Positions 9,653 to 34,789 of a DNA stretch of 34,789 nucleotides are shown piece by piece. The DNA is from Bacillota bacterium (GTDB lineage Bacteria; Bacillota; Sulfobacillia; JACIYH01). The notes under the pieces were generated by a model. That model worked only from the letters and a program-made list of their open reading frames with translations. It had not been told where the DNA came from and did not search any database. Each line of letters begins with the position of its first letter. The stretch's first letter is position 1. A program made the position numbers and the translations under genes. Location: contig JACIYH010000021.1 in assembly GCA_014360055.1 (NCBI GenBank), forward strand, positions 1 to 34,789, read 5' to 3'.

Positions 9653-9720
9653 CTTGGGCTCCTCCTCTCTGAGTGGGCTCCAAGGTGGCCTGGTTTTCAC
9701 CTGTGCGCCACATGTCCTAC

Positions 9721-18729: not shown

Positions 18730-19656
18730 CTAGTGCCCTTCGCGGTCGTAGGCCAGCCCCAGCGCTCCCGGCGCTCCCAGCCTCCGCCCGCCCCGCGTGC
18801 TGACCAGGAGCACCAGGATGGTGAAGATGTAGGGGAGCATGCTCAGGAAAAACGAGGGGACCACGGTGCCCACCGCCTGGATGCGCAGACCGAGGGCATC
18901 CACGCCCCCGAACAGGTACGACCCCGCCAGTGCCACCAGGGGGTTCCACCCCGCGAAGATCACCAGGGCCACGGCGATCCAGCCCCGGCCCGCGGTCATG
19001 TTTTCCAGCCAGGTAGGAGCATAGGCCAGGGAAAGATACGCCCCTCCCGCCCCCGCCAGGACGCCGCCCGCCACCGTGTAAATGTAGCGGGTCCACCCCA
19101 CGTTGATCCCCATGGCATCGGCGGCGGCAGGGTTCTCGCCCACCGCCCGCATGTGCAGACCGGGCCTGGTACGGTAAAGGAAGAACCACAGGGCGGGAAC
19201 GAGCAGGTAACTGATGTAAACCAGGTAGTCGTGCCCGAACACCACCGGCCCCAGGAAGGGGATGTCAGCGAGCACGGGGACCTCCACCGTCCGGAAGGTG
19301 GACGGTGCGGGAACGCCGATCACGGGTTTCCCCAGGTAGCCGCTCAGCCCGGTGCCGAACAGGGTCAGGGCCAGGCCGCTCACCACCTGATTGGCGCGCA
19401 GGCCCACGCAAAGGGCGGCGTGGATGAGGGCCATCAACCCTCCCGCCACCAGCGCGCCCAGCAGCCCCAGCCAGGGACTGCCCGTACGCACCGTCACCAG
19501 GAACCCGGAGACCGCCCCCACCAGCATCATGCCCTCCACGCCCAGGTTGAGCACACCCGCCCGCTCGGCCAGGATTTCCCCCAGGGCGGCAAAAAGGATG
19601 GGAGTCCCCGCCGTAACAGCCGCCTGGCAGATGGAAACCGCCAGTACCCAGTCCAT
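18730..19656 (-). CDS. BMP-type nucleoside ABC transporter permease (NupQ-like)
   Basis: This 308-residue membrane protein of the BPD_transp_2 type has TPILFAALGEILAERAGVLNLGVEGMM at the start of its transmembrane core, the mark of the NupQ/YufQ branch, and VGENPAAADAMGINV, the usual cytoplasmic loop. About eight or nine transmembrane helices are visible. With NupP it forms the channel of an importer for purine or pyrimidine nucleosides, or related bases. It is the last gene of the transporter set, and its start directly abuts the nupP-like stop. Confidence 0.87.
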   Translation of the reverse strand: MDWVLAVSICQAAVTAGTPILFAALGEILAERAGVLNLGVEGMMLVGAVSGFLVTVRTGSPWLGLLGALVAGGLMALIHAALCVGLRANQVVSGLALTLFGTGLSGYLGKPVIGVPAPSTFRTVEVPVLADIPFLGPVVFGHDYLVYISYLLVPALWFFLYRTRPGLHMRAVGENPAAADAMGINVGWTRYIYTVAGGVLAGAGGAYLSLAYAPTWLENMTAGRGWIAVALVIFAGWNPLVALAGSYLFGGVDALGLRIQAVGTVVPSFFLSMLPYIFTILVLLVSTRGGRRLGAPGALGLAYDREGH

Positions 19657-20829
19657 CTAGTTCCCCCCGAAATCTCCGGCCCGGCCGTTCCGGGCCGGCG
19701 CGACCGCATCACCGGCCCCGGGCGCCGACCCGCTCCCCGCGGCCCCAGCCGCCCGGCGCTCCGGTGCCACCTCACCCGGCACCACCAGCCGGATGCGGTA
19801 CCGGGTGAGGAATTCCCCTCCCAGCACGAAGAACAGAATGGCCCCCTGCAGCATGTACGCAACGGCGGCCGGGATACCGGCCAGTTGCACGGCATAGCCG
19901 CCCACCAGCAGACCTCCGAACAGCACGGCCACCACCAGGATGGCCCAGGGATTGAGGCGGGACAGCCAGGCCACGATGATGGCCGAGTAACCGTATCCGG
20001 GACTAATCTGGTGTTGCAGGCGGTGGACGACGCCCGACACCTCGCAGGCACCCGCCAGCCCGGCCAGGGCCCCGCTCAGGAGCATGACTAGCAGGATGTT
20101 GCGCTCCACGTTCATGCCCGCGTAGCGGGCCGCCCGCGGGCTCTCACCTATCACCCTCACCTCGTACCCCCAACGCGTGCGCCACAGCAACACGCTGAGC
20201 ACGGCAGCCGCCACTATTGCCATCACGAGACCCACGTGCACGCGTGTACCCGGGAAGGTGGGAAGCCAGGCCGTGCGGGGGAAGGGCGGGCTGAGCGGGA
20301 AGTTGAGCCCGGCCGGGTCTCGCCAGGGACCGTGCACCAGGTAGCTCACCCACAGGATGGCGACGTAATTGAGCATGAGGGTGGTGATGACCTCGTTGGC
20401 CTTGAGGTAGGCCCGGGGCAGGGCGGGCAGGAGCGCCCAGAGACCACCGAACAACATACCCGCCGCCAGCATGGCCGGGAGCAGGAGGTATGCGGGCCAC
20501 TCCGGGAAGGACAGGCAGACCCAGGTGGCGGCAAAGGCCCCCATGTACAACTGCCCCTCGGCACCGATGTTCCAGAGCAGCATGCGGAAGGCCACCCCTA
20601 CCCCCAACCCGCACAGCATGAGGGGGATGGCCTTCACGAAGGTCTCCGTGGTGCCGTAACGGGATCCGAATGCCCCCCGCAGCATCATGCCGTACACTTC
20701 CGCCGGGTTGCTTCCCGTGAGAGCCAGGAAGAGGGCCCCCGCCAGCAACGCCAGGGCTACGGAGACGACGGGCGTGGCCCACACCAGGGCGGTGGGGACG
20801 TCCAGCCTTCTTTCCAGGCGCAGCCTCAT
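19657..20829 (-). CDS. BMP-type nucleoside ABC transporter permease (NupP-like)
   Basis: The protein is a BPD_transp_2 permease of the NupP/YufP branch: KAIPLMLCGLGVGVAFRMLLWNIGAEGQ in the first half, LKANEVITTLMLNYVAILWV in the middle and the loop VIGESPRAARYAGMNVERN. Membrane helices end near FFVLGGEFLTRYRI. A C-terminal tail of about 45 residues (Ala/Gly/Pro-rich) is extra and looks disordered. The ATG overlaps the stop of the ATPase gene by 4 bp (ATGA), so subunits are made in coupled fashion. Confidence 0.87.
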   Translation of the reverse strand: MRLRLERRLDVPTALVWATPVVSVALALLAGALFLALTGSNPAEVYGMMLRGAFGSRYGTTETFVKAIPLMLCGLGVGVAFRMLLWNIGAEGQLYMGAFAATWVCLSFPEWPAYLLLPAMLAAGMLFGGLWALLPALPRAYLKANEVITTLMLNYVAILWVSYLVHGPWRDPAGLNFPLSPPFPRTAWLPTFPGTRVHVGLVMAIVAAAVLSVLLWRTRWGYEVRVIGESPRAARYAGMNVERNILLVMLLSGALAGLAGACEVSGVVHRLQHQISPGYGYSAIIVAWLSRLNPWAILVVAVLFGGLLVGGYAVQLAGIPAAVAYMLQGAILFFVLGGEFLTRYRIRLVVPGEVAPERRAAGAAGSGSAPGAGDAVAPARNGRAGDFGGN

Positions 20830-22376
20830 GCCTGCCCACCCCCGCCGGCGTCCTTGGGCAGCTCAATGCCCGCCATCATCAGCCCTATCTCTTCCCGGCT
20901 CGCCTGCGCGGCGGGCATTTCCCCCACTATGCGCCCCTCGTACAGGACCACAACGCGGTCGGAAAGGGCCAGGATTTCGTCCAGGTCCTCGGAGATGAGC
21001 AGGATGGCCGCTCCCTCATCCCGCTGTTCGAGGAGGAGGCGGTGGACGCCGGCCGTGGCTCCCACGTCCAGCCCGCGGGTCGGGTGCACCGCCACCATCA
21101 CCCGGGGCCGCGCGGAGATCTCCCGGGCCAGGAGCAGGCGTTGCAGGTTGCCTCCCGAGAGCTTGCGCACGGGCGCATCCAGCCCGGGCACCTTGACCGC
21201 AAACTCCTCCACCAGCACGCGGGTTCTCCGCCTGATTTCCCCCCGGCGCAGGAAGGGACCCCGCGACACGGGGGGGTGCCGGTAACACTTGAGGATGGCG
21301 TTGTCACACACCGTGAGGGTGGGGACCAGACCGGTACCCAGCCGGTCCTCAGGAACCAGGCTGAGACCGCACGCGATGAGGCGCGCCGGGTGACAGCCGG
21401 TGACCTCCGTGTCCCCCACCCTGATACTTCCCCTCAGGGTCGGACGGAGTCCGCTGATCACCTCGGCCAGTTCCCGCTGGCCGTTCCCCGACACTCCCGC
21501 CACACCCACGATTTCACCCGCATGCACCCGGAGGGAGAGGCCCCGCAGGGCCAGAAAGCCCCGGTCGCCCATGGCTTCCACCCCCTCCAGGCAAAGCAGC
21601 ACCTCCTGCCCCGCCTGCCGGGTACGCTGGTAAGAGACGGACACCTCCCGCCCCACCATGAGTCGTGCCAGTTCCCGCGCCGAGGTGGCAGCCTTCTCCA
21701 GGGTGGCCACGTTGCGGCCCGCCCGCAACACGGTGATGCGGTCCGCCACCTCCATTACTTCCTGCAACTTGTGGCTGATGAAAACCACGGCGCGCCCGGC
21801 AGCGGCCATCTGGCGCAGCACCGTGAAGAGATCCCGCGCCTCCTGGGGTGTGAGCACGGCGGTGGGCTCGTCCATGATCAGCACCCGCGCCCCGCGGTAG
21901 AGCATCTTGAGGATTTCCACCCGCTGCTGCTCCCCCACGGAAAGCTGCCAGATCTGGGCGCGGGGGTCGACCTTGAGGCCGTGCCGGTCGCCCAGCCGCG
22001 CCACTTCTTGTTCCACTGCAGCCAGATGGAGGGCGAAGCGGGGGCGGTCCAGGCCCAGGGTGACGTTCTCGGCCACCGTGAAGGGCTCCACCAGGCGGAA
22101 GTGCTGGTGCACCATACCGATCCCGGCCCGGATGGCATCACGCGGGGAGCGGAACACCACGGGCCTGCCCTCAACCAGGATCTCGCCCCCATCGGGCCGG
22201 TAGAGCCCCGAAAGGATGCTCATCAGGGTGGTTTTACCCGCCCCGTTTTCCCCCAGGAGGGCGTGCACCTCCCCCGCTCGCACCGACAGGCTGACCCTGT
22301 CGTTGGCCAGCACCCCGGGAAAACGCTTGCTGATCCCCCGCATCTCGACCAGGATGTCCCCGGCCAAGCGGTTCAC
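20826..22376 (-). CDS. BMP-type nucleoside ABC transporter ATPase, two domains (NupO-like)
   Basis: This 516-residue protein has two fused nucleotide-binding domains, as in NupO/RbsA. Domain 1 has Walker A GENGAGKTT, Q-loop GMVHQHFRLVEPFT, signature QLSVGEQQRVEI and Walker B VLIMDEPT. Domain 2 has the weak Walker A of this family (GVSGNGQRELAEV), signature KLSGGNLQRLLLAREI, and a Walker B that reads MVAVHPTRGLDVG, where the acidic residues are replaced, as is usual in this branch. The GTG start has a weak ribosome site. It follows the binding-protein gene after a strong hairpin. Confidence 0.88.
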   Translation of the reverse strand: MNRLAGDILVEMRGISKRFPGVLANDRVSLSVRAGEVHALLGENGAGKTTLMSILSGLYRPDGGEILVEGRPVVFRSPRDAIRAGIGMVHQHFRLVEPFTVAENVTLGLDRPRFALHLAAVEQEVARLGDRHGLKVDPRAQIWQLSVGEQQRVEILKMLYRGARVLIMDEPTAVLTPQEARDLFTVLRQMAAAGRAVVFISHKLQEVMEVADRITVLRAGRNVATLEKAATSARELARLMVGREVSVSYQRTRQAGQEVLLCLEGVEAMGDRGFLALRGLSLRVHAGEIVGVAGVSGNGQRELAEVISGLRPTLRGSIRVGDTEVTGCHPARLIACGLSLVPEDRLGTGLVPTLTVCDNAILKCYRHPPVSRGPFLRRGEIRRRTRVLVEEFAVKVPGLDAPVRKLSGGNLQRLLLAREISARPRVMVAVHPTRGLDVGATAGVHRLLLEQRDEGAAILLISEDLDEILALSDRVVVLYEGRIVGEMPAAQASREEIGLMMAGIELPKDAGGGGQA

Positions 22377-22457
22377 CCCCGCCCACTCACTTCAAGGATC
22401 CGACCGTTGCCAGCCTGCGCAGCCGGGCTGAAATACACCCCGCCCCCTGGCACTCAG

Positions 22458-22495
22458 GGGGTGGCCGCGGCGCCCGGAAGCGCCGGGGCCACCCC
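22458..22495 (-). terminator. Intercistronic hairpin between binding-protein and ATPase genes
   Basis: On the minus strand GGGGTGGCC pairs with GGCCACCCC around an inner GGCGC/GCGCC stem. It lies 10 bp after the binding-protein stop and has no U-tract. In ABC operons such structures often stabilise the upstream mRNA or partly end transcription, giving excess binding protein. Confidence 0.55.
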
Positions 22496-22504
22496 TTTCA
22501 GCCG

Positions 22505-23620
22505 TCACTTGATGGTACCTTCCACTCCCTCGACGAACCAGTCAAAGCTGAGCATTTCCTGGTCTGTCATCTTCTGCCCCTCGGCCACACGGACCTTGCC
22601 GGACTGGTCCTTGATGGGGCCCCAGAAGACGTCCCACTTACCGGAGATGATTTCCTGCTTCTTGTCCTCCACCAGTTTCTTCACGTCGTCCGGGACCATG
22701 GGGCCGAAGGGGGCCAGGTCCACGATGCCGTCGGCCATCCCGCCCCAGTACGCCTCGGGCTTCCAGGTCCCGTCCATGACGGCTTTGACCACCCGCACAT
22801 AGTACGGACCCCAGTTCCACACCGGGGCGGTGAGGTGTGCCTTGGGAGCGAAGGAAGACATGTCGGAGTTGTAGCCCACCCCGTACTTGCCCGCCTCCTG
22901 GGCGGCCTGCTGCGGCCCCGGGGTATCCTGGTGCTGGGCGATGACGTCGCACCCCACCGCCAGCAGGCTCTTGGCCGCTTCCTTCTCCTTGGCCGGATCG
23001 TACCAGGTGTTGGTCCACACCACCTTGACCGTGGCCTTGGGGTTCACCGAGCGCACCCCCAGGGTGAAGGCGTTGATGCCGCGTACCACCTCGGGGATGG
23101 AGAAGGCGGCCACGTAGCCGATCTTGTTGCTCTTGGTCATCTTGCCGGCCACGATCCCGCTCAGGTAGCGGGGCTGATACATGCGGCCGAAGTAGTTACC
23201 CATGTTCTTGTCCATCTTGTACCCCGAGCAGTGCATGAACACCCGATCGGGGTACTCTTTGGCCACGTTGAGGGTGCCGTCCATGAACCCGAAGCTGGTG
23301 GTGAACACCACCTTGCAGTTGCTCTGCTCCACCAGGCGCCTGATCTCCCGCTCGCAGTCGGCCCCCTCGGGAACGGATTCGACGAAGTAGGTCTTCACGC
23401 CGGGCACGTTCTTCTCCAGGTACTGGCGGCCCTGGTCGTGGGCCCAGGTCCAGCCCGCGTCACCCACCGGGCCCACGTAGATGAACCCCACGTTGAACTC
23501 CTTGGGTTCCTCCGCCGGCTTGGCCGGCTCCGCAGGCTTTTGGGCGGGCTTTGTGCACGCACCGACCAAAGCCATGCACAGAAGCAGGACCAGCGCGGCG
23601 ACGAGTATCTTCCGCTGCAT
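22505..23620 (-). CDS. BMP-family substrate-binding lipoprotein
   Basis: This 371-residue protein has a lipoprotein signal (ILVAALVLLLCMALVGACTK, lipobox Cys at residue 22) and a Pro/Ala/Lys/Glu linker. The BMP (PnrA/Med-like) fold follows: FNVGFIYVGPVGDAGWTWAHD, CKVVFTTSFGFMDGT and IGYVAAFSIPEVVRGINAF. Family members bind purine nucleosides or, in some branches, free bases and related heterocycles. The WT.AHDQGR and FGFMD loops suit such a ligand, but specificity cannot be read from sequence. It lies 33 bp after a MoaD-like gene and so probably belongs to the same transcript as the AOR genes. Confidence 0.88.
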   Translation of the reverse strand: MQRKILVAALVLLLCMALVGACTKPAQKPAEPAKPAEEPKEFNVGFIYVGPVGDAGWTWAHDQGRQYLEKNVPGVKTYFVESVPEGADCEREIRRLVEQSNCKVVFTTSFGFMDGTLNVAKEYPDRVFMHCSGYKMDKNMGNYFGRMYQPRYLSGIVAGKMTKSNKIGYVAAFSIPEVVRGINAFTLGVRSVNPKATVKVVWTNTWYDPAKEKEAAKSLLAVGCDVIAQHQDTPGPQQAAQEAGKYGVGYNSDMSSFAPKAHLTAPVWNWGPYYVRVVKAVMDGTWKPEAYWGGMADGIVDLAPFGPMVPDDVKKLVEDKKQEIISGKWDVFWGPIKDQSGKVRVAEGQKMTDQEMLSFDWFVEGVEGTIK

Positions 23621-23967: not shown

Positions 23968-25890
23968 CTATCCTCCCCCCGCGCCTTCTCCGGGGCCGTT
24001 ACCAGGCGGGCCGGTACCCTCAAGCCCGAGCCCCAGCACCTCGGATGCCTCCCGCTCCAGGCCCAGGCGCCGCAGGGTCGCGGGCAAAGGCACACCCCGC
24101 ACGTCCCAGCCATGGGCACGGTAGTACTCGGGCAGCATGGTTTCCAGATGGACCACCTGGCCCCGGGCGGGCCCCCGGGGCAGCGGGTGGTGGGTGTAAC
24201 GGCGGGGAAGGCGGTCGTCCCGGGCGGGCAGCATACCCCGCCGGATATTCAGGAGCCGCTCCAGGTTGTAGGCCCGCTCCGCCAGGTGCAAGAGATCCGC
24301 TGCCGTCCGTTCCTCCCCCGTGGCCAGGGTGACGAACCGGGCCAGGTCCTCCGGCAAGAGGGCATAGGTGGCGAAGGTGGTGTACTTGCATATTTCTGCA
24401 GAGTCGCACAGCATGGCGAAGTACTCGTGCCAAACAACCATGGGCACCTTGCCCCGTTCCGTATACGGGTCCACGCAATAGGGATTCCCGAACCAGCGCA
24501 CTCCTTCCTGCTCGCTCATGCCCAGCAACTCGAAGTTGGGGAGGGCGGTCAGGTGATCCCCTCCCCGGTTGGCCGTGGCTTCCGAAAGGCCAAAACCCTT
24601 GCCCGTGCGCACGTCAAAGGCGGGCAGTTCCAGCCCCTTGACCTCAAGGGCGAATTCCTCCGACCCCGGGATGGCGCGGGCCAGGCGGGCCACCCCCTGC
24701 CCGGCCAGTTCGCCCAACCCTTCCCGGTAGGCCATCTTGCGCAGGAGGTCGATGACCACGGCGGCATCCCCCCAGGGGAGCCGGTCGGGGATGAGGTCAC
24801 GCTGGGACGCTTCCATCAGGAAGGAGATGGCCGTTCCGGCCGAAATGGTGTCCAGGCCCAGGTCGTTGCACAGGTGGTTGGCGTACAGGATGGCCTCCAG
24901 GTCCCCCAGTCCCACCCGTGACCCCAGGCACACCAGGGTCTCGTATTCGGGACCCCCACCCCTCATGCGGTGGGGCCCCGTCCTCACTTCCACGTAGTTC
25001 TTGCAGTGCAGCGGGCAGCACCAGCAGGCCTTCTTGGCCACGGTGTACCCGGCGTGCAGGCGCCGGGAGGATATGCCCTCGTAATGCTCGAACACGCCCT
25101 CCTGCGCGTTGCGGGTGGACAGCCCACCCGAGGCCTGGGCGATATCAACCAGGATGGAGGTACCGTACCTGGAGAAGTCCGGGTAGGTCCTGTCCGCCAT
25201 GATCTTGCCGCAGGCGTCGCGCACCGCCTCCAGGAACCGCTCCGGGTCGGCCACCCTCACCTTCCCGGAGCCGCGGGCGGCAATACATTTGAGTTTCTTC
25301 GCCCCCCACACGGCGCCCAGGCCGGGGCGGGCCTGGGCGTCCCAGCCGTCGTTCATCACCGCGGAGACGAGCACCTGATTCTCCCCGGCGGGGCCGATAC
25401 CCAGGTAACGCACGTCCGGACCGTGCCTCTCTTCCAGTAACTCCCAGGTGCGCAACAGTCCCTGCCCCCAAAGGTGGCCGGCAGGAAGTAGTTGGGCACG
25501 GCCGTCCTCCAGGTACAGGTAGACGGGCTCCGGGCTGCAGCCGGTGATGACCAGGGCATCGAACCCGGCCAGCTTCATCTCGGGGCCGAAATGCCCCCCC
25601 GAGTTGGCGTGTCCGACCAGGCCCGTCTTCGGTGAGACCGCTGCCACCGTGAAGCGCCCGGAGGCGGGTGCGAGGGTACCGGTGATGGGACCGGTGGCCA
25701 CCACGATCACGTTCTCCGGGCCCAGGGGATCGGCCCCCGGGGGCACCAGGTCGTACAGCAGGCGCGCCGCCAGGGCCCTGCCCCCGAGGTAATCCCTCTG
25801 CAGGGCGTCGGGGAAAGATCTGCCCTCCACCGTCCCCTTGCTCAAATCGACCCACAGGATGGTGCCCTGGTAGGAAACCCCCGCCACCAT
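23968..25890 (-). CDS. Aldehyde:ferredoxin oxidoreductase family protein (AOR1)
   Basis: This 640-residue protein has all three AOR domains. The N-terminal part (YQGTILWVDLSKGTVEGRSF) and GATGP-like PITGTLAPASGRF bind the two pterins with IGPAGENQ and DLGLDTIS. The [4Fe-4S] cluster ligands are intact: CWCCPLHC (Cys-x2-Cys-x3-Cys) with the distal Cys in SAEICKYTTF. The family oxidises aldehydes, or reduces acids, with ferredoxin; some members act on other C-H or C=O groups. The ATG at 25890 has AAGGAGG upstream and a GTG as second codon. The Gly/Pro-rich C-terminus (GLEGTGPPGNGPGEGAGGG) is low-complexity. Confidence 0.9.
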   Translation of the reverse strand: MVAGVSYQGTILWVDLSKGTVEGRSFPDALQRDYLGGRALAARLLYDLVPPGADPLGPENVIVVATGPITGTLAPASGRFTVAAVSPKTGLVGHANSGGHFGPEMKLAGFDALVITGCSPEPVYLYLEDGRAQLLPAGHLWGQGLLRTWELLEERHGPDVRYLGIGPAGENQVLVSAVMNDGWDAQARPGLGAVWGAKKLKCIAARGSGKVRVADPERFLEAVRDACGKIMADRTYPDFSRYGTSILVDIAQASGGLSTRNAQEGVFEHYEGISSRRLHAGYTVAKKACWCCPLHCKNYVEVRTGPHRMRGGGPEYETLVCLGSRVGLGDLEAILYANHLCNDLGLDTISAGTAISFLMEASQRDLIPDRLPWGDAAVVIDLLRKMAYREGLGELAGQGVARLARAIPGSEEFALEVKGLELPAFDVRTGKGFGLSEATANRGGDHLTALPNFELLGMSEQEGVRWFGNPYCVDPYTERGKVPMVVWHEYFAMLCDSAEICKYTTFATYALLPEDLARFVTLATGEERTAADLLHLAERAYNLERLLNIRRGMLPARDDRLPRRYTHHPLPRGPARGQVVHLETMLPEYYRAHGWDVRGVPLPATLRRLGLEREASEVLGLGLEGTGPPGNGPGEGAGGG

Positions 25891-25933: not shown

Positions 25934-27112
25934 TCAATAAGGCCGGCTCAGGGCGAACTGGGGGCAGATACTGCCGCACAGGCCGCAACCCTGGCACTTT
26001 TGCGCGTCCACGGTGACCGGCCCCACCTCATCCTGGGATATGGCCCCCGCCGGGCAGGAGGGCAGGCACAGGCCACACCCCGTGCAGCGGCCGGTATCCA
26101 CACGGGCGGGCCTCACCTCCAGCTGGACCGGCTGGCCCTCACCCACCGCCCGCAGGTAACGCCCCCGGATCTCCTCCGGAGAACCATAACCGTGGTCGTC
26201 CAGCCACCTGCCCAGTTCCGCGGCCACCCGCCCGTAGATGCCGGGACCCTGGAGGATGGCCCCCGTGCAGATCTGAACCGCCCGGGCTCCGGCCATCAGG
26301 AACTGCACGGCATCCCGGCCCGACATGATACCGCCCACCCCGATCACCGGCTTGGGCGTGGCCCGGGCCAGCTCGAACACGCAGCGCAGGGCCAGGGGCC
26401 TGATGGGCGCCCCCGAGATCCAGCCGTAGCCGAAGGGGCTGCCCAGGTAAGGAGCGGGGTTTTCCGGGTCGAAGTCCAGACACGGCCCCAGGGAGTTGAT
26501 GGCCACGAACCCGTCCACGTAGGGCTCGATGGCCCGCGCCACCGCCACCAGGTCGGGGACGTTGGGGGACAGCTTGGCGAATACGGGGATGCTCACTGCG
26601 TCGCGCAGGGCGCGGGCCGTCTCCAGCACGGGGTCGATGGCGCCACCCAGGTAGTGCACCGAAAACTCGATGGCGTCCACCCCCGCCCGTTCGACCTGCG
26701 GACCCACCTCGCGCACCTCATCGGCCGTGTACCCTATGCTGGCGATCACGGGCAACCGCGTCTCCCGTGCCCGGGGGTACTCGGCGGCCAGCCACCTCTC
26801 CAGGGGAAGCTCCGACCAGAGTTCCGTGTTGAGCAAGGCCTGGCCTGCCTGCACCTCGGTACGCACCACGCGGGCCAGACCCCCGCCTGCGCCCACGGAG
26901 ATGAGGTGCAGGATGCGCCCCCGGCCGGGCACCATCATGTTGGGGTGGGGTACCGGGGCCGGCTTCACCGACACCGTCTTGCACACCAGCCCACCGGCAC
27001 CCCCCTGTGCCGCCCGCACCAGGGCCGCCCCATCCTGGGAGGGGGGCCCGGCGGCGGTGAACACGGGGTTGGGAAAAGTGAGCCCGGCGAAACTCACACG
27101 CAGGTCTGCCAA
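25934..27112 (-). CDS. PreA/dihydroorotate-dehydrogenase-like flavoprotein with 2[4Fe-4S] ferredoxin domain
   Basis: The N-terminal FMN barrel shows LTFPNPVFTAAGPPSQDG, VFAKLSPNVPDLVAVA, VAINSLGPCLD and the phosphate loop GVGGIMSGRDAVQFLMAGA with VQICTGAIL. The C-terminus has two cluster motifs, CTGCGLCLPSCPAGA and CQGCGLCGSICPQFA. PreA is the dihydropyrimidine dehydrogenase subunit that reduces uracil or thymine. However, the catalytic Cys loop (NFSCPQ in PreA) reads EFSVHYLGG, so the proton-donating Cys is missing and the substrate is probably different. TTG at 27112 is the likely start: GGAGGTGAGG precedes it and the AOR2 stop is 4 bp away. No PreT (NAD-binding) partner is adjacent, so ferredoxin may be the donor. 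Confidence 0.85.
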   Translation of the reverse strand: MADLRVSFAGLTFPNPVFTAAGPPSQDGAALVRAAQGGAGGLVCKTVSVKPAPVPHPNMMVPGRGRILHLISVGAGGGLARVVRTEVQAGQALLNTELWSELPLERWLAAEYPRARETRLPVIASIGYTADEVREVGPQVERAGVDAIEFSVHYLGGAIDPVLETARALRDAVSIPVFAKLSPNVPDLVAVARAIEPYVDGFVAINSLGPCLDFDPENPAPYLGSPFGYGWISGAPIRPLALRCVFELARATPKPVIGVGGIMSGRDAVQFLMAGARAVQICTGAILQGPGIYGRVAAELGRWLDDHGYGSPEEIRGRYLRAVGEGQPVQLEVRPARVDTGRCTGCGLCLPSCPAGAISQDEVGPVTVDAQKCQGCGLCGSICPQFALSRPY

Positions 27113-27116
27113 CCCC

Positions 27117-29150
27117 TCACCTCCCGTCGCCCTCGGGGCCCCGACCCGGCTCCGTACCGCCGGGGGAGCACGGCCGCCCGGGCCCTCCGCACCCCGTGTT
27201 CGCCGGGCACGCCGGCCGCGGCCCGCCCGCCAGCCGCCCCAGTCGGGCGAGTTCTTCCGCCACGTCCCCCAGGCCGGCCTCTTCCAGGATCTCCCGGTAG
27301 GGAAGGCCGGTGGCCTGATCGTAGCCGCGTACCTCGTAGTACTCCCGGAGCATGGGCTCCAGGCGGCACACTTCCCCCCGGGCCGGCCCCGAGGGCATGG
27401 GCTCCTCGGTGAAACGGGGATGCAGGGTGTCCCGCGACCGGTCCCAGCCCAGCCGGACGTTGAACGCACGCCGCAGATGGCAGATGCGGCGCCCCAGTGC
27501 CCGCACCGCCTCGGGATCGGCGTACTCCGTCATCCCGGTGGCGGTCGAGATGGCCCGCGCAAACTCGGGGAAGTAGTAAATGGGCGGCCACATGACCCCG
27601 TACTTGCACACGATCATGGAGTCGCACACGGCAAAGCACTCTTCCTGGTCCGCCACCATGTAGCCCTTGTAGGTTTCATCGAGGAGGTTCCCGCACACCT
27701 CCGGGTCCAGGTGGGGGAAGCGCTCAATGGCCTTGGATCGGAACCCCAACTCGTCGATCACCGACAGGCTGCGCAGGTGGTCCGCACCCCGCACGTTGAT
27801 CGCGTAAGTGCAGCCGACGGACTTGTGAGAGCGCGGGTCCTGTCCGGAGGCCTCCAGCCCGTTCACCGAGATGGAGTACCGCCAGGCCTCGCCCCCCAGT
27901 TCCCGCGCTGCCAGGTCGCAGCCTTCTCCGAGCAGGCGGCCAAATCCTTCCCGGCGGGCGATCTGCTCCAGCAGGGCCAGCGCAACCTCGCCGTCCCCCC
28001 AGCGGATCTCCATCCCACCCGTCTCTTCTTTGCCGATCAGACCGCGCTCGTACAGCTCCATGGCAAAGGCCACCGCCGCCCCCGCCGAGATGGTGTCCAG
28101 GCCGTAGATGTTGCACAGGTAGTTGGCCCGCATCACCACGTCCAGGTCGTACACCAGGATGTTGGGACCCCAGGCGTCCACCGTCTCGTACTCGGGCCCC
28201 TCCGAGCGGGTGCCCCGGTACGGGCCCGAGGACACGTGGGAGACGTACTTGCACTGCAGGGCGCATCCGAAACAGGCCTTGTGGGCCACCCGGTATCTCT
28301 GCCTGATGGCCTCGCAACCCACCCTCTCCACGTCGGGGAGGTACCCGTCCTGGTGGTTCTTCACGGGCAGGCGCCCGATGGCGTTCATGGCGTCGGTGAG
28401 GCCGGTGGTACCGTAGCGGCGGGACGTGCGGCGGATGTAATCCGCCCACTCCCCCTCCCGGTGGGCAAGATGAGCTTCCCGGCAGGCGGCCAGGAACCCT
28501 TCGGGATCCGCCACCCGCACGGGCCCAAACCCGCGTACGGCGATGGCCTTCAGCCCCTTGGCCCCCATCACCGCACCCATGCCCGTCCGCCCGGCCGCCC
28601 GCCAGTAGTCGGACATGATGGCCGCGTACCGCACGAGCTTTTCCCCGGCGGGACCGATGCACGCCACCTTGACCTCGGGATCGCCCAACTCGCGGGCAAT
28701 GGTATCGGTGGTCTCCGGTACGGGCTTTCCCCACAAGGCGGCCGCCGACCGCAATTCGGCGCGCCCATCCTGGATGCATAGCCATACCGGCTCGGAGGCC
28801 CTGCCCCGGATCACCAGGTAGTCGAACCCGGCGTACTTTAACTCGGCGCCGAAAAAGCCCCCCGCGTGGGCCTCGCCCCAGTGGAAGGTGAGGGGAGATA
28901 GCGCAGCCGCCATCCAGCGCCCCGAAGGGGGATACAGGGTGCCGGTGAGGGGACCGGTGGCTATGACCAGCACGTTGTCCGGGCCCAGGGGATCCGTGCC
29001 CGGCCGCACCTGATCCCACAGGACGCGGGCCGCCACCCCGTCCCCGCCCAGGTACATCCGCTGCATTTCCTCCGGAACCGGCAGGGTTTCCACCCTGCCC
29101 GCGGAAAGGTCCACGTCCAGAAACCTACCCTGGTATCCGCCCAGAGCCAC
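27117..29150 (-). CDS. Aldehyde:ferredoxin oxidoreductase family protein (AOR2)
   Basis: This AOR paralogue begins VALGGYQGRFLDVDLSAGRV. The GTG at 29150 has AAGGAGG seven bases upstream; the GTG at 29156 overlaps the ferredoxin stop and is too near that site. Pterin-binding parts include TGPLTGTLYPPSGRW, IGPAGEKL and IYGLDTIS. Cluster ligands are ACFGCALQC and the Cys in DSMIVCKYGVMW. After the usual AOR end (LGDVAEELARLGR) there is a tail of about 40 residues with three Cys (PACPANTGCGGPGRPCSPGG), absent from AOR1 and AOR3. It sits directly between its likely electron partner (polyferredoxin) and the PreA-like gene. Confidence 0.9.
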   Translation of the reverse strand: MALGGYQGRFLDVDLSAGRVETLPVPEEMQRMYLGGDGVAARVLWDQVRPGTDPLGPDNVLVIATGPLTGTLYPPSGRWMAAALSPLTFHWGEAHAGGFFGAELKYAGFDYLVIRGRASEPVWLCIQDGRAELRSAAALWGKPVPETTDTIARELGDPEVKVACIGPAGEKLVRYAAIMSDYWRAAGRTGMGAVMGAKGLKAIAVRGFGPVRVADPEGFLAACREAHLAHREGEWADYIRRTSRRYGTTGLTDAMNAIGRLPVKNHQDGYLPDVERVGCEAIRQRYRVAHKACFGCALQCKYVSHVSSGPYRGTRSEGPEYETVDAWGPNILVYDLDVVMRANYLCNIYGLDTISAGAAVAFAMELYERGLIGKEETGGMEIRWGDGEVALALLEQIARREGFGRLLGEGCDLAARELGGEAWRYSISVNGLEASGQDPRSHKSVGCTYAINVRGADHLRSLSVIDELGFRSKAIERFPHLDPEVCGNLLDETYKGYMVADQEECFAVCDSMIVCKYGVMWPPIYYFPEFARAISTATGMTEYADPEAVRALGRRICHLRRAFNVRLGWDRSRDTLHPRFTEEPMPSGPARGEVCRLEPMLREYYEVRGYDQATGLPYREILEEAGLGDVAEELARLGRLAGGPRPACPANTGCGGPGRPCSPGGTEPGRGPEGDGR

Positions 29151-29152
29151 GC

Positions 29153-29641
29153 TCACCCCTCCTTCGCCGCCAGGTCCAGGTAGCGGGCCAGATAACCCAG
29201 GCTCGCCCGCTTGCGCGCCAGCCCTACCCGGTCGGCCCGCACGTACTCGATGGCCCCCACCGGGCACATCCCGGCGCAGCGCGGACTGCCCCCGCACAGG
29301 TCACACTTGATGATTTTCCCCGTCTCCGGGTGAATGGCGGGGCCCCCGAAGGGACAGGCCAGCACGCACATGTGACACCCGATGCACCGCCGCGCGTCCA
29401 CCAGCACCGCCCCCGTCTCCGGGTCCCGGTCGATGGCCCGCGCGGTACAGGCCTCCATGCACAGGGCGGTCTGACACTGCTGGCACACCATGGGCACGTC
29501 CACCCCCTCCCGCTTCCAGGACACCACCTGGATGCGGGAAAGGGCCGGGCTGAATACGCGCTCGTGTTCCCACGAGCAGGCCAGCTCGCACACGCGGCAC
29601 CCGGTGCACTTCTCCGGCCAAACCAGCAGCACCTTCTGCAC
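29153..29641 (-). CDS. Polyferredoxin, four [4Fe-4S] clusters (AOR electron partner)
   Basis: This 162-residue protein of the HycB/PhsB type has 16 Cys in four groups: CTGCRVCELAC, CQQCQTALCMEAC, CIGCHMCVLACPFGG and CDLCGGSPRCAGMC. It should carry electrons between AOR and ferredoxin or a quinone/NAD reductase. I take the GTG at 29641 (VQKVLLVWPEKC), with GGGGGGAG upstream, rather than the TTG at 29659. It ends 2 bp before the start of AOR2, with the AOR2 ribosome site inside its last codons, so the two are coupled. Confidence 0.88.
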   Translation of the reverse strand: MQKVLLVWPEKCTGCRVCELACSWEHERVFSPALSRIQVVSWKREGVDVPMVCQQCQTALCMEACTARAIDRDPETGAVLVDARRCIGCHMCVLACPFGGPAIHPETGKIIKCDLCGGSPRCAGMCPVGAIEYVRADRVGLARKRASLGYLARYLDLAAKEG

Positions 29642-29698
29642 GCTCTCTCCCCCCAACACTCCTCAGCCTGCCCGTCCGCGCTACCTGGCGCCCACCCG

Positions 29699-29926
29699 CT
29701 ATCCACCGCCCGCGGGCCAGAGGAGGGACACCTCATCCCCCGGCTGCAGGACCGTACCCTCACGTGCCTGGCGGCCGTTCACCACCACCACGGGCGGGGG
29801 AAAGCGGGGTAGCCCCAGCACGTCGATGAGTTGCGCGGCCCGGGTCCCTTCCGGCAACTCGACCTCTCCCTCCCCGGCGGGATAGAACTGGGCCAGCGGC
29901 CCCACCACCTTAACCCGTACCTTCAA
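29699..29926 (-). CDS. MoaD/ThiS-like sulfur carrier
   Basis: This 75-residue beta-grasp protein reads MKVRVKVVGPLAQFYPAGEG, then TRAAQLIDVLGLP and VVVVNGRQAREGTVLQPGDEVSLLWPAGGG. Unlike the other copy it ends in the expected Gly-Gly (one extra Gly), so it can be activated by a MoeB/ThiF-like enzyme and donate sulfur for pterin dithiolene synthesis. It overlaps the AOR3 gene by 17 bp and probably serves the W/Mo cofactor of this cluster. Genes of this kind are common in AOR loci. Confidence 0.85.
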   Translation of the reverse strand: MKVRVKVVGPLAQFYPAGEGEVELPEGTRAAQLIDVLGLPRFPPPVVVVNGRQAREGTVLQPGDEVSLLWPAGGG

Positions 29927-31793
29927 GATCCCTCACCAGCTCCGGCAAGCCCAACTCCTGCAGGCGTTCCCGGGTGGGAATGCCATCGGGAGTCCAGCCC
30001 CGCTCCCGGTAATACTCGTCCAGCATGTAGTCAAGTTCCACCACGTGGCCCCGGGCGGGCCCGTCGGGTGCCGGCTCCTTCAGGAGGCGCTCCGGCAGGG
30101 TATCATGGGCCCGGCGCAGGCCCAGCCTCACGTTGTACATGCGCTGCAGGTTGACTACGCGTTCCCCCAGCTTCTCCAGGTCGGCCACCGAAAAGTCCAT
30201 GCCGCAGGTGAGCGCCAGCCCCTCCGCCACCTCCTCGTACCCCAGGGTGGGGGGCACCATGGTGCCGTACTTGCACGCCCCCACCGATTCCACCACTGCC
30301 GCCCAGTTCTCATTGACGTACACCATGTGACCCTTGTGCACGGGCGACAGCCGGTCGGCCATCTCGGGCATGTACTGGGGGCCGTAGACCCGCCTGATCT
30401 CCTCGTCGAAGCCGCCCTCGTCCAGCACGGGGAAGGCGTAGAGGTGGTCGGCCCCCCGCGCCGAGGTGGCCATGGCCAGCCCCATGGACTTCTGCCCCCT
30501 GGGCTCCTGCCCGGCGATCTCCATCCCCTTGACGTGCATGACCAGCTTCTCCGCCTCCGGGCCCAGTTCCCGGGCCGCCCGCAGCGACCCGCTGGCCAGG
30601 AAGTCCCCCAGCCCCTCCCGGTACGCCAGGCGGCGGGTTAGCTCCACCACGGTTTCGGCGTTTCCCCAGCTCAGGTCCAGGTCGCCCACCAGTTCCCGCG
30701 GGAGCAGACCACGCTCCCATGCCTCCATGGCCCACGAGATGACGGCACCGGCTCCGATGGTGTCCAGCCCCAGTACGTTGCACAGGTAACCGGCGTAGAT
30801 CACCGCCTCCAGGTCGTCCACGCCGCACCGGGACCCCAGGGCGGCCAGGGTCTCGAACTCCGGCCCCCCGGTGCGACAGCGAAAGCGGCCTTCCCTCACC
30901 TCCACGTAGCGGCCGCAACGCTGGGCACAGGCGAAGTCGGCCCGCGGCTTGATGAGGTACTCCTGGCGCAGCCGCCTGCCCCCGATGCGGCGGGCCCCCG
31001 GAAACACGCCGGAGCGCAGGTTCCAGGTGGGCACGCGGCCGATGTCCGACATGATCTCCATGAGGCCCGCGGTGCCGTACACCACCCGGGTGCCGGCGAT
31101 GGGGTCGTCGAGCAGCTTCTGGATCATGCGCCGGCAGAACTCGGGATAGCGGGCCCGATCGGCCACCTCGACCCCGCCCGTGCCCCGCACGCAGATGGCC
31201 TTGAGGCGTTTGGCCCCCATCACCGCCCCCACGCCGCACCTGGCCGCCACCCGGTCGCGGTCGTTGACGATGGCTGCTACCAGCACCAGGTTCTCCCCGG
31301 CCGGCCCGATGCTCGCCACCCGGCAGTCGTCACCGTGGGCGTCGAGCAGGATGTCCTCGGTCTCGTGGACGTTCTTTCCCCAGAGGTGACCGGCGTCCCT
31401 GATCTCGACCCGCTCGTCGGAGATGAAAATGTAAACGGGCCGCGGGGACTCACCTTCCACCACCAGCCCGTCGTAGCCGGCGAACTTGAGGGCGGGGGCC
31501 CAGTGCCCGGCGGCGTGGGCTTCCCCCCAGATGCCCGTGAGGGGGGAACGGGTGGTGACCACGTACCGGTTCCCCTGGGGCCACATGGTACCGGTGAACG
31601 GCCCCGTGAAGAAGTAAAGCTTGTTGTCGGGACCGAGAGGGTCAACGTGGGGGCCCACCTCCCGGTACAGCAGCCAGGAAGCATAACCGGTTCCCCCCAG
31701 GAAGCGGCGCACGAGGTTCCCGTCCAGTGGTTCCTTACGCACCTCGCCCCGGGTCAGGTCAACGCGCAGGATCTTACCCGTATACCCGTACAA
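29910..31793 (-). CDS. Aldehyde:ferredoxin oxidoreductase family protein (AOR3), Asp-substituted cluster motif
   Basis: This 627-residue AOR starts at a TTG (MYGYTGKILRVDLTRGEV) inside the end of the upstream ferredoxin gene, an overlap of 20 bp. Pterin motifs are TGPFTGTMWPQGNRY, IGPAGENLV and LGLDTIGAG. The cluster motif differs: AOR2 has ACFGCALQC at the position where this protein reads ADFACAQRC, so the first Cys ligand is Asp, while the other two and the distal Cys (VGACKYGTMV) remain. Asp-ligated [4Fe-4S] clusters are known in some ferredoxins and have shifted potential or easy loss of one iron. AOR3 may thus have a different redox role. No frameshift is seen. Confidence 0.9.
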   Translation of the reverse strand: MYGYTGKILRVDLTRGEVRKEPLDGNLVRRFLGGTGYASWLLYREVGPHVDPLGPDNKLYFFTGPFTGTMWPQGNRYVVTTRSPLTGIWGEAHAAGHWAPALKFAGYDGLVVEGESPRPVYIFISDERVEIRDAGHLWGKNVHETEDILLDAHGDDCRVASIGPAGENLVLVAAIVNDRDRVAARCGVGAVMGAKRLKAICVRGTGGVEVADRARYPEFCRRMIQKLLDDPIAGTRVVYGTAGLMEIMSDIGRVPTWNLRSGVFPGARRIGGRRLRQEYLIKPRADFACAQRCGRYVEVREGRFRCRTGGPEFETLAALGSRCGVDDLEAVIYAGYLCNVLGLDTIGAGAVISWAMEAWERGLLPRELVGDLDLSWGNAETVVELTRRLAYREGLGDFLASGSLRAARELGPEAEKLVMHVKGMEIAGQEPRGQKSMGLAMATSARGADHLYAFPVLDEGGFDEEIRRVYGPQYMPEMADRLSPVHKGHMVYVNENWAAVVESVGACKYGTMVPPTLGYEEVAEGLALTCGMDFSVADLEKLGERVVNLQRMYNVRLGLRRAHDTLPERLLKEPAPDGPARGHVVELDYMLDEYYRERGWTPDGIPTRERLQELGLPELVRDLEGTG

Positions 31794-32190
31794 GCTTCAT
31801 CACCCCCGGGGGGCAGAATCCGGCGCAGGTGCCGCACTGCATGCAGATGAGGGGGTACCCTTCCCCGGGGTGGAAGAACACCGCGCCGTACGGACACGCT
31901 TCCCCGCAGGCACCACAGGCAGCACACAGGTCCCGCTCCAGTTCCACGTGCCCCTCCCGAACCGACAGCGCCCCCGTTGGGCACGCCTCCACGCAGGGAT
32001 GATCCGGACAGTTGCGGCACATCGACACCTCGTCCCGCCCGTCGTCGTACCTCTTCACCCGCACCCGGGCCAGAGCCGGTGCCACCCGGCCGAAGTGCTC
32101 CAGACTGCAGGCGGCCTCACAGTAACGACAGCCCGTGCACTCTTTGGGATCCACCTCGTAGTGCGCCAGCACCTCGCGCTCTCCCGCCAC
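31774..32190 (-). CDS. Polyferredoxin, four [4Fe-4S] clusters (AOR electron partner)
   Basis: This 138-residue protein has 16 Cys in four sets: CTGCRYCEAAC, CRNCPDHPCVEAC, CAACGACGEACPYGA and CMQCGTCAGFCPPG. It is of the same general type as the other polyferredoxin of the cluster but clearly diverged. The GTG at 32190 has AGGAGGGG seven bases upstream, 12 bp after the carbamoyltransferase stop. It overlaps AOR3, with which it most likely forms an enzyme/electron-carrier pair, just as the second polyferredoxin pairs with AOR2. Confidence 0.88.
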   Translation of the reverse strand: MAGEREVLAHYEVDPKECTGCRYCEAACSLEHFGRVAPALARVRVKRYDDGRDEVSMCRNCPDHPCVEACPTGALSVREGHVELERDLCAACGACGEACPYGAVFFHPGEGYPLICMQCGTCAGFCPPGVMKLVRVYG

Positions 32191-32202: not shown

Positions 32203-33219
32203 CTACGTAAGGGCTCCCAGCACCAGCGCCAGTATGGCTTTCTGCACGTGCAGCCGGTTTTCCGCCTGGTCGTAAACTAAGGACCGGTCCGAATCCACCA
32301 CCTCGTCGGCCACTTCGAACCCGCGCTCGATGGGCATGGGGTGCACGAAATAGGCGTTGGCCGTCCTGGCCATCAGTTCAGGAGTGGTGCACCAGTGCTG
32401 GTAGGGCTTGTAGCTCTCCAGCTCAGCCTCCATCCCGATCTCGTACCGGCGCGGGCTCATCCAGTTGCGCGAGTACACCACGTGGGCGCCCCGGTAGGCC
32501 TCCTCCAGGTCGTGGGTGATCTCGAACCTGCCCCCGGACTCGGCACAGTAGGCCTGCGCCTGCTCGATGATCCTGGGATCCAGGTCGAACCCCGGCGGAT
32601 AGGCCAGGGTGATGTCCCAGCCGTACCGGGATTGGAGCAGGAGGCTCTCCTGAACGGAGCACCAGCTGCGCGCCTTGGTGGGCGAATAGCCCCAGACGTG
32701 CAGGAACTTTTTGCCCCGGAACTCCTTCTGCCCGAAGGCCTCCTGCAGGGTCATCAGGTCGGCCAGGGCCTGGCAGGGGTGGTAGGTATCGTCGCACATG
32801 TTGATCACGGGGATGGTGGCCTGGTCGGCGTACTCCTTGATGAGAGCATACCCTTCCCCGTAGTAGCTGAGCTTGTCCTCGGCGATCCTCACCCCGATGG
32901 CCTGCCCGTAACGGGACATCACCAGGGCGGTGTCCTTGACCACCTCACCCCGGTAGGTCTTGGTCTGGATGCGCATCTTCTGGGGTTCCAGGAACTGGGC
33001 GTGACCACCCAGCTCCGTCATGGCCGCCTCGAATGACTGTCGGGTGCGGCTGGACTCCGAGTAAAAGAGCATGAGCATGGTCTTGCCCCGGAGGAGATCC
33101 ATGTACCGGGGATCCCACCGGTTGGCCTTCATCTCCCTGGCCACCTCGATCACCCGGTCCAGCGCCTCCCGCGGCCAGTCCGGCGTCCTGAGAAGGTCCT
33201 TGCCTTTGAAGTCAAACAC
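32203..33219 (-). CDS. Knotted carbamoyltransferase (YgeW/ornithine carbamoyltransferase-like), copy 1
   Basis: The protein has the carbamoyl-phosphate loop SESSRTRQSFEAAMTELGGHA and the HPCQALADLMTLQEAFG motif, then HVWGYSPTKARSW, close to the WAYSP region of YgeW. The end (LVYDQAENRLHVQKAILALVLG) is like ornithine carbamoyltransferase. The amine-substrate loop, HCLPAD in YgeW and ornithine enzymes, reads HPMPIERGFEV, so the partner substrate is probably different. I choose the GTG at 33219 (VFDFKGKDLLRTPDW) with AGGA just upstream; the ATG 36 bases earlier is possible. It is separated from carbamate kinase by about 65 bp. Such pairs make carbamoyl phosphate from a ureido compound for ATP. 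Confidence 0.85.
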   Translation of the reverse strand: MFDFKGKDLLRTPDWPREALDRVIEVAREMKANRWDPRYMDLLRGKTMLMLFYSESSRTRQSFEAAMTELGGHAQFLEPQKMRIQTKTYRGEVVKDTALVMSRYGQAIGVRIAEDKLSYYGEGYALIKEYADQATIPVINMCDDTYHPCQALADLMTLQEAFGQKEFRGKKFLHVWGYSPTKARSWCSVQESLLLQSRYGWDITLAYPPGFDLDPRIIEQAQAYCAESGGRFEITHDLEEAYRGAHVVYSRNWMSPRRYEIGMEAELESYKPYQHWCTTPELMARTANAYFVHPMPIERGFEVADEVVDSDRSLVYDQAENRLHVQKAILALVLGALT

Positions 33220-33284
33220 TTCTTTCCTGCCCCCCCTCAATTCCCTTGCCAACATGCCTCACTTCAAGCCGGCTACCGGACGGC

Positions 33285-34229
33285 TCAGCAGGGCACGATC
33301 CAGGTACCCGCCCTTCCCGCCAGCGCATCGAGCGCCTGCACGAGCGAGCCGATGATGGCCCGTTTGCCGCCAGCCTCCACGAACCGGCAGCATGCCTCCA
33401 CCTTGGGACCCATGCTGCCCGGTTTGAAGTGCCCTTCCTTTTGCAACGCCCTCGCCTCGGACACGGTCATTCGCGACAGGAATCGCTGGGTGGGCCTGCC
33501 ATAATCCACCGCCACGGCAGGCACGTCCGTCAGGATCATGAACACATCCGCCCCCAGCCCGGTGGCCAGACGCTGGCCGCCCAGGTCCTTGTCGATGACC
33601 GCCTCTACACCCCGCAGCGTGCCGTCCGGCTCCCGCACCACCGGAATGCCGCCGCCACCGGTGCACACCACGATGGCGTGGTCACGGGCCAACCGGCGGA
33701 TGGCTTCCAGTTCCACGATCTCCTTGGGATCGGGAGACGGCACCACCTTGCGCCATCCCCTGCCCGCGTCCTCCACCCAGGTTTCTCCTTCCGCCATCCG
33801 CTTGCGGGCATACGCCTCGTCGTAAAAAGGCCCCACGGGCTTGGTGGGCCTGAGGAAGGCCGGGTCATCGGCCGACACCACCGTCTGGGTGACGATACTG
33901 GCCACCGGCCGAAGCTCCATCCCCCGCCGCACCAACTCGTTGCGCAGGCTGTGCTGCATCATGTACCCGATCATGCCCTGGCTCTCCGCCCCGCAGATGT
34001 CCATGGGCATCGCCGGCACCGCATCCGTGGCCTGGTTCTGGATGATGATGTTCCCCACCTGCGGCCCGTTGCCGTGGGTGAGCACCACCCGATACCCCTC
34101 TTCCAGCAGGGTGACGATCTGCCGGCACGTGGTACGCACGTTCTCCAGTTGCTCCTCCGCCGTCCCCCTCTGCCCCGGCTGCAGGATGGCATTACCCCCC
34201 AGGGCGATCACCACAAGCTCTTTGGCCAC
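33285..34229 (-). CDS. arcC: Carbamate kinase
   Basis: This 314-residue protein belongs to the amino-acid kinase fold: VVIALGGNAILQPGQRGT, LTHGNGPQVGNIIIQNQ, CGAESQGMIGYMM, CTGGGGIPVV, IDKDLGGQRLA and FKPGSMGPKVEACCRFVE are all signatures of ArcC/YqeA. It converts carbamoyl phosphate and ADP to carbamate (then CO2 and ammonia) and ATP, the energy step of ureido-compound fermentation. The GTG at 34229 with AGGAGG just upstream is a firm start; the ORF-track ATG at 34316 is too early. It lies between two carbamoyltransferase genes, which feed it. Confidence 0.93.
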   Translation of the reverse strand: MAKELVVIALGGNAILQPGQRGTAEEQLENVRTTCRQIVTLLEEGYRVVLTHGNGPQVGNIIIQNQATDAVPAMPMDICGAESQGMIGYMMQHSLRNELVRRGMELRPVASIVTQTVVSADDPAFLRPTKPVGPFYDEAYARKRMAEGETWVEDAGRGWRKVVPSPDPKEIVELEAIRRLARDHAIVVCTGGGGIPVVREPDGTLRGVEAVIDKDLGGQRLATGLGADVFMILTDVPAVAVDYGRPTQRFLSRMTVSEARALQKEGHFKPGSMGPKVEACCRFVEAGGKRAIIGSLVQALDALAGRAGTWIVPC

Positions 34230-34312
34230 TTCTTCCTCCTCCTGCCTCCCGGTGCCTTCGGACCGTAATCTGCCCCCGGCATGCGGGCCGGGATCCCCCA
34301 GAGATGCAGCCC

Positions 34313-34789
34313 TCACTGCATGATGAGGGCCATCACCGCCTTCTGGGCGTGCAGCCGGTTCTCCGCCTGGTCGAATACCACCGAGTTGGGACCATCTATG
34401 ACCTCGTCCGTCACCTCGAAGCCCCGGTCGGCGGGCAGACAGTGCATGTACAGCACGTCCGGCTTGGCCAGTTTCAGGGTTTCCTCATCGCAGATCCAGT
34501 GCTTGTTGGCGTCGAACAGCTTCTGGATGGCATCCCAGTCGGCTTCCCGGGCCTGGGGCGGGATGTGCCTGAGCACGCCCCAGCACTTGGGGTACACCAC
34601 GTCCGCATCCCGGAACGCCTTCTTCATATCGTGCACGATCTCGAACGTGCCGCCGAACTTACGCTGGTTCTCCTTGACTTTCTCGATCACCATGGGGTCG
34701 AGCTCGAACCCCTCGGGGTGGGCCAGCACGATGTCCATGCCGAAGAAACTGGCGATGGCCATGGCACTCTGGGGAACCGCCACCGGCTT
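34313..34789 (-). CDS. Knotted carbamoyltransferase (YgeW-like), copy 2, partial at window edge
   Basis: Only the C-terminal half is in the window; the N-terminal part with the carbamoyl-phosphate loop lies beyond the right end. The visible part is KPVAVPQSAMAIASFFGMDI, VLAHPEGFELDPMVIEKVKE, DADVVYPKCWGVL, NKHWICDEETLKLAKPDVLY, MHCLPADRGFEVTDEVID and VVFDQAENRLHAQKAVMAL. The first half of this matches YgeW (KPLSVPQ, VYPKSW, MHCLPAD), while the tail is like ornithine carbamoyltransferase. The substrate loop is HCLPAD, unlike HPMPIE in copy 1, so two different amine acceptors are likely. It is not truncated within what can be seen. Confidence 0.85.
   Translation of the reverse strand, partial: KPVAVPQSAMAIASFFGMDIVLAHPEGFELDPMVIEKVKENQRKFGGTFEIVHDMKKAFRDADVVYPKCWGVLRHIPPQAREADWDAIQKLFDANKHWICDEETLKLAKPDVLYMHCLPADRGFEVTDEVIDGPNSVVFDQAENRLHAQKAVMALIMQ

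Follow-up and report, generated by a model that had tools for sequence, protein, structure and literature searches.

An aspartate at the first iron–sulfur ligand position marks a conserved clade of AOR-family oxidoreductases whose gene neighborhood resembles anaerobic purine breakdown

Results and discussion

An operon with three AOR-family paralogs

The window (the whole 34,789-nucleotide stretch of DNA that was analyzed) carries an operon that runs from part of a carbamoyltransferase gene through genes for a carbamate kinase, a carbamoyltransferase, the polyferredoxin FdA, the AOR-family protein AOR3, a second polyferredoxin (FdB), AOR2, a PreA-like DHO_dh flavoprotein, and AOR1 to a BMP-type importer (Table 1). 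By its domains, this BMP/PnrA-type system is a nucleoside-type importer. Positions 6464-9700 of the window are occupied by an IS21-type insertion element encoding a transposase and an IstB helper. The genome to which the window belongs (G000, 2.7 Mb) encodes at least nine AOR-family large subunits, and 14 and 16 AOR-family matches were found in G001 and G037, respectively; one AOR-family gene of G000 (contig C46:11858-12720) appears broken, its coding sequence being split between two reading frames (stretches of 443 and 79 aa).

Table 1. Features of the AOR3 operon, with positions in the window and the basis for each assignment
Feature	Position	Strand	Basis
Second carbamoyltransferase, C-terminal part, at window end	34313..34783	-	Below YgeW cut-off
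Carbamate kinase ArcC	33285..34316	-	TIGR00746 over cut-off
Carbamoyltransferase (OTCace family)	32203..33255	-	Below every equivalog cut-off
FdA, polyferredoxin small subunit (WorS-like)	31774..32190	-	Fer4 domains; overlaps AOR3 start
AOR3, W/Mo-bis-pyranopterin oxidoreductase large subunit (WorL type)	29910..31793	-	AFOR_N, AFOR_C, 1AOR match, AF2 model
Asp286 codon GAC, replaces first Cys ligand	30936..30938	-	Codon reading and alignment
Cys289-x-Gln291-Arg292-Cys293	30915..30929	-	Clade signature
Cys507 (TGC), distal cluster ligand	30273..30275	-	Invariant in alignment
FdB, second polyferredoxin, upstream of AOR2	29153..29659	-	Domains; AOR2 pairing in archaeal loci
AOR2, paralog with normal CxxCxxxC	27117..29177 (exact start uncertain)	-	Alignment
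PreA/UacX-like DHO_dh flavoprotein with ferredoxin domain	25934..27112 (exact start uncertain)	-	PF01180 102 bits and Fer4
AOR1, third paralog, CxxCxxxC	23968..25890	-	Alignment
BMP/PnrA-type binding protein, ABC ATPase, two permeases	18730..23620	-	PF02608, PF00005, PF02653; synteny in G001, G002

The AOR3 open reading frame begins with a TTG codon and encodes 627 aa, in which both domains of the family score well over cut-off (AFOR_N PF02730, 269.9 bits; AFOR_C PF01314, 431.5 bits). The protein matches 1AOR at E=3e-148, its AlphaFold2 (AF2) model has a mean pLDDT of 93.2 and a TM-score of 0.93 to 1AOR, and the structures matching this model at E<=0.001 are exclusively AOR family members. In place of the usual CxxCxxxC...C cluster motif, AOR3 reads D286-x2-C289-x3-C293...C507; Asp286 occupies the first cluster cysteine column when the protein is aligned to four solved AORs (1AOR, 9MQX, 9G7J, and 8C0Z), and where AOR2 of the same window has ACFGCALQC, AOR3 has ADFACAQRC. 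The original prediction had described an aspartate substituting for the first cysteine, with the remaining two motif cysteines and the distal cysteine present and no translation error involved, and this description is upheld codon by codon on the minus strand (Ala285 GCC, Asp286 GAC, Phe287 TTC, Ala288 GCC, Cys289 TGT, and Cys293 TGC, together with Cys507).

The pairing of a large subunit with an adjacent polyferredoxin is the layout described for ferredoxin-linked Class II enzymes (PMC13328260), whose small subunit has four [4Fe-4S] clusters, and AOR3 shares this WorL plus WorS arrangement: FdA is adjacent, contains Fer4 domains, and has as its best solved match the WOR5 small subunit (6X6U_B, E=1.5e-23). 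A polyferredoxin gene also lies directly upstream of AOR3 in all 16 archaeal loci, each of which was read with several kilobases on either side.

Conservation of the aspartate in bacteria and archaea

Orthologs came from genus mates, from contigs of GTDB genomes, and from 196 Asgard-phylum genomes, and the resulting alignment holds 131 AOR-family proteins: 37 high-scoring AOR3 orthologs, from one bacterial genus, Asgard archaea, and one Hadarchaeum, and 94 others. Aspartate is found at the first-ligand column in 36/37 AOR3 orthologs and in 0/94 of the other sampled proteins, all of which have the usual four cysteines. It is kept down to 52% identity and spans both domains of life at 52-57%, with the three other ligands intact. 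The clade further shares the signature D-x2-C-x-Q-R-C, in which Gln291 is present in 37/37 orthologs vs 0/94 others and Arg292 in 37/37 vs 5/94. An AOR3 ortholog occurs in 45 of the 196 Asgard genomes, and a survey of 300 genomes from the same phylum as the window found none beyond the window's own genome at the threshold used.

With aspartate in 36 of 37 orthologs, the residue is neither a point mutation nor a product of chance, and sequencing error is likewise ruled out. The original prediction had reasoned that cysteine in all close homologs would make this a point mutation and had proposed a homolog alignment to decide the matter; that alignment instead bears out its suggestion of a conserved trait marking a distinct subgroup. 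Judged by the alignment, the substitution is real, conserved, old, and subgroup-defining.

The 37 orthologs are monophyletic (FastTree support 0.99), and their sister is a Hadarchaeum protein with cysteine. The sole ortholog with cysteine at the aspartate position is L122 (genome G383; locus L146), and because this variant belongs to an otherwise intact gene cluster, aspartate is not strictly required in the clade. The locus of this natural Asp-to-Cys variant also contains SsnA-like proteins and two AOR2-like paralogs. On a second tree, the residue must change state twice, with moderate support on the inner branches around L122, and the simplest history by parsimony would be that aspartate was gained once in the clade ancestor and reverted once.

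Neighboring genes resemble a purine-breakdown gene set

The window operon is kept in both genus mates (G001 and G002). Upstream of it, G001 encodes an adenine deaminase and an MTAP-type phosphorylase, both over cut-off, and an NCS2-like permease that was recognized by eye and has no NCBIfam match. The archaeal AOR3 loci commonly include a DHO_dh/PreA gene (14/16), an AOR2 ortholog (13/16), an amidohydrolase (14/16), and a ThiS-like protein (14/16). Mvh-type (MvhD/G/A) hydrogenase genes are frequent neighbors of AOR3 in the Asgard loci (L147-L161), hinting at electron flow linked to H2 or heterodisulfide.

In G000, the window cluster occurs a second time, on contig C67 (L173:1-15730). Relative to the window, this copy's carbamoyltransferases are 96% and 90% identical, its carbamate kinase 88%, and its FdA counterpart (FdA') 77%, and the N-terminus of its AOR3 counterpart (AOR3'), a gene cut by the contig end, is 89% identical. 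The same contig encodes a D-hydantoinase, SsnA, and 8-oxoguanine deaminase, all over cut-off, as well as serine hydroxymethyltransferase and PLP enzymes; in G001 and G002, SsnA is encoded at a distance from AOR3.

These genes recall the reductive urate pathway (PMC12507026), in which the Mo hydroxylase XdhD takes oxygen off urate, YgfK or UacX (a DHO_dh protein) dearomatizes the product, ring opening falls to SsnA and HyuA, and ATP is gained through YgeW and carbamate kinase; its clusters comprise genes for XdhD, YgfK/UacX, SsnA, HyuA, YgeW, and YqeA. In G000, SsnA (TIGR03314 and NF005540), hydantoinase (TIGR02033), and carbamate kinase (TIGR00746) all score over cut-off, and the DHO_dh reductase has the PF01180 and Fer4 domains of a UacX-like protein. 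The carbamoyltransferases score below the YgeW cut-off, TIGR03528 gave nothing over cut-off for the diaminopropionate ammonia-lyase YgeX (PLP enzymes of other kinds are encoded), and no XdhD-type Mo hydroxylase (MoCoBD_1) was detected in G000, G001, or G002. From its gene content, the AOR3 neighborhood looks like an anaerobic purine-breakdown operon similar to that of the reductive urate pathway.

AOR3 and Mo hydroxylases almost never co-occur

Of 61 relatives from the class, 8 encode SsnA over cut-off. In the five of these genomes outside the genus (G026, G028, G036, G045, and G057), a Mo hydroxylase gene shares the contig with SsnA and lies only a few kilobases from it, whereas none of the three from this genus has a Mo hydroxylase (Fisher p 0.018, with the three representing a single genus). 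Among Asgard genomes, a Mo hydroxylase domain was found in 1/45 AOR3-positive genomes, as a 48-residue match, vs 39/151 negative ones (p 0.0002, kinship ignored). AOR3, SsnA, and a Mo hydroxylase are all present in the Hadarchaeum genome G355. AOR3 and Mo hydroxylases thus almost never co-occur, a pattern confounded by phylogeny, as all three bacteria belong to a single genus and the counts from Asgard genomes lack independence. Because XdhD is absent from an otherwise purine-type gene set and Mo hydroxylases are nearly excluded where AOR3 is present, we infer that AOR3, perhaps together with AOR2, takes over the role of XdhD.

Possible function of AOR3

Our leading interpretation, which we give an even chance of proving correct, is that AOR3 is a Class II-like tungstopterin oxidoreductase with an Asp-ligated cluster, most likely replacing an XdhD-type enzyme in anaerobic purine or N-heterocycle catabolism. 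As the catalytic subunit, AOR3 would hold a W-bis-pyranopterin and one cluster bound by Asp286, Cys289, Cys293, and Cys507, with the aspartate acquired in a single gain in the subfamily ancestor, probably independently of WOR5. FdA would pass electrons between this cluster and ferredoxin, and the complex would add or remove oxygen at a purine ring carbon in place of the XdhD type. The PreA/UacX-like flavoenzyme, SsnA, hydantoinase, carbamoyltransferase, and carbamate kinase could then complete the breakdown, with ATP obtained from carbamoyl phosphate. The AOR reaction takes hydride from a hydrated carbonyl, and we reason that oxidizing a purine C=N bond in its hydrated form would be closely similar chemistry. 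More tentatively, and with somewhat more doubt than belief, AOR3 may be specifically a W-dependent urate/xanthine dehydroxylase or hydroxylase that has an Asp-ligated proximal cluster and replaces Mo hydroxylases, within a pathway that Asgard archaea and one bacterial genus have in common through gene transfer. We count against the leading interpretation the presence of both enzyme types in G355, the unrecognized YgeX, the carbamoyltransferases that miss the YgeW cut-off, the separate location of SsnA in G001 and G002, the cysteine ortholog within a complete gene cluster, and the fact that AOR-family enzymes ordinarily oxidize aldehydes. Our literature search, which covered papers available without subscription, found none linking AOR-family enzymes to purine catabolism.

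AOR3 could instead be an ordinary aldehyde or semialdehyde oxidoreductase that is Asp-ligated but performs no ring chemistry, its place in the operon reflecting oxidation of an aldehyde intermediate, or detoxification. This is rather unlikely in our view. In its favor, most characterized family members outside BamB/YdhV oxidize aldehydes (PMC12096430), and the aldehyde active-site residues Thr241, Glu312, and His450 are conserved in AOR3. Yet the column of PfAOR Tyr427 holds Gln in 37/37 clade members (although Gln also occupies 32/95 rows elsewhere in the sample), the known reductive urate pathway proceeds without any aldehyde oxidation step (PMC12507026), and an aldehyde role sits poorly with the near-exclusion between AOR3 and Mo hydroxylases.

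A separate question is whether the site binds a stable Asp-ligated [4Fe-4S] cluster, and we regard it as improbable that it carries a [3Fe-4S] or easily interconverted cluster instead. Such a cluster has a precedent in WOR4, another family member, which has glycine in place of one cysteine and shows an Fe3S4-like signal (PMC12096430), but WOR5 retains [4Fe-4S] with aspartate at the same position. In the AOR3 clade, moreover, cysteine is the sole alternative to aspartate and a non-ligating residue is never seen, which is the pattern expected for a ligand. Finally, neutral drift, sequencing error, or cluster loss is scarcely credible: the one ortholog with cysteine does show that the residue can change, but the conservation of aspartate in 36 of 37 orthologs from both domains of life, with the other ligands intact, already refutes it.

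If AOR3 does act on purines, the AOR/WOR family would gain a function beyond aldehydes, sulfonates, and benzoyl-CoA, and AOR3 would be a candidate enzyme for the missing first step of Asgard purine catabolism. The clade also offers a naturally performed ligand-replacement experiment, with 36 aspartate proteins, one cysteine variant, and a second aspartate lineage (WOR5) for which a crystal structure exists. As a lead to function, the surrounding genes are of more interest than the aspartate itself.

Comparison with known systems

The original prediction knew of no aspartate ligand in the AOR family, and here it was mistaken. Pyrococcus furiosus WOR5/ASOR (aliphatic sulfonate ferredoxin oxidoreductase) binds its [4Fe-4S] cluster through three Cys and one Asp, as crystallography has confirmed (PMC10221389, PMC12096430), and phmmer aligns ADYGCPVNC of WOR5 (6X6U) to ADFACAQRC of AOR3 with the aspartates in the same column. 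This alignment was obtained with a 118-residue fragment as query; searching the PDB with a 22-residue motif returned nothing useful, and WOR5 was absent among the alignments listed when the distant paralogs L007, L113, and L111 served as queries. A cryo-EM paper (PMC10413684) states that the four-cysteine motif is present in all known structures and about 99% of sequences, which disagrees with the WOR5 reports. Since WOR5 lacks it too, the CxxCxxxC...C motif is typical of the AOR/WOR family but not defining.

WOR5/ASOR (PDB 6X1O and 6X6U) resembles AOR3 in its first-ligand aspartate, three cysteines, polyferredoxin small subunit, and fold. The two are nevertheless only 28% identical on structural alignment, AOR3 is nearer 1AOR (498 bits) than WOR5 (238 bits), and AOR3 keeps Arg185 at a conserved arginine column, whereas WOR5 is reported to have a diagnostic Tyr199 (PMC12096430). 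This distance, together with Arg185, rules out membership of AOR3 in the WOR5/ASOR subgroup. As AOR3 is nearer classical AOR and its sampled outgroup relatives have cysteine, its aspartate was probably gained separately, a view drawn from trees built without WOR5; the substitution is not new to the family in principle and likely represents a second origin.

Classical aldehyde:ferredoxin oxidoreductases (AORs; 1AOR, 9MQX, 9G7J, and 8C0Z) share with AOR3 the fold (TM 0.91-0.93 by query length), both Pfam domains, and the Thr/Glu/His active-site residues, but they have four cysteine ligands and, in 1AOR, an active-site tyrosine where AOR3 has Asp and Gln, respectively. P. furiosus WOR4 has, like AOR3, lost one cluster cysteine. 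It was considered as a further aspartate carrier and rejected, as PMC12096430 describes Cys to Gly and Tyr to Trp changes with an Fe3S4 cluster; AOR3, with Asp and Gln at these positions, has neither mark of the WOR4 subgroup. In DPOR, a low potential serving ring reduction is credited to a 3Cys+Asp cluster (PMC4157233), and by analogy Asp286 could tune the cluster beside the predicted tungsten site in AOR3.

Like the reductive urate clusters (PMC12507026), G000 combines a DHO_dh-type reductase, SsnA, hydantoinase, carbamoyltransferase, and carbamate kinase, partly within its AOR3 clusters; unlike them, it has AOR-family enzymes with polyferredoxins in the place of the Mo hydroxylase.
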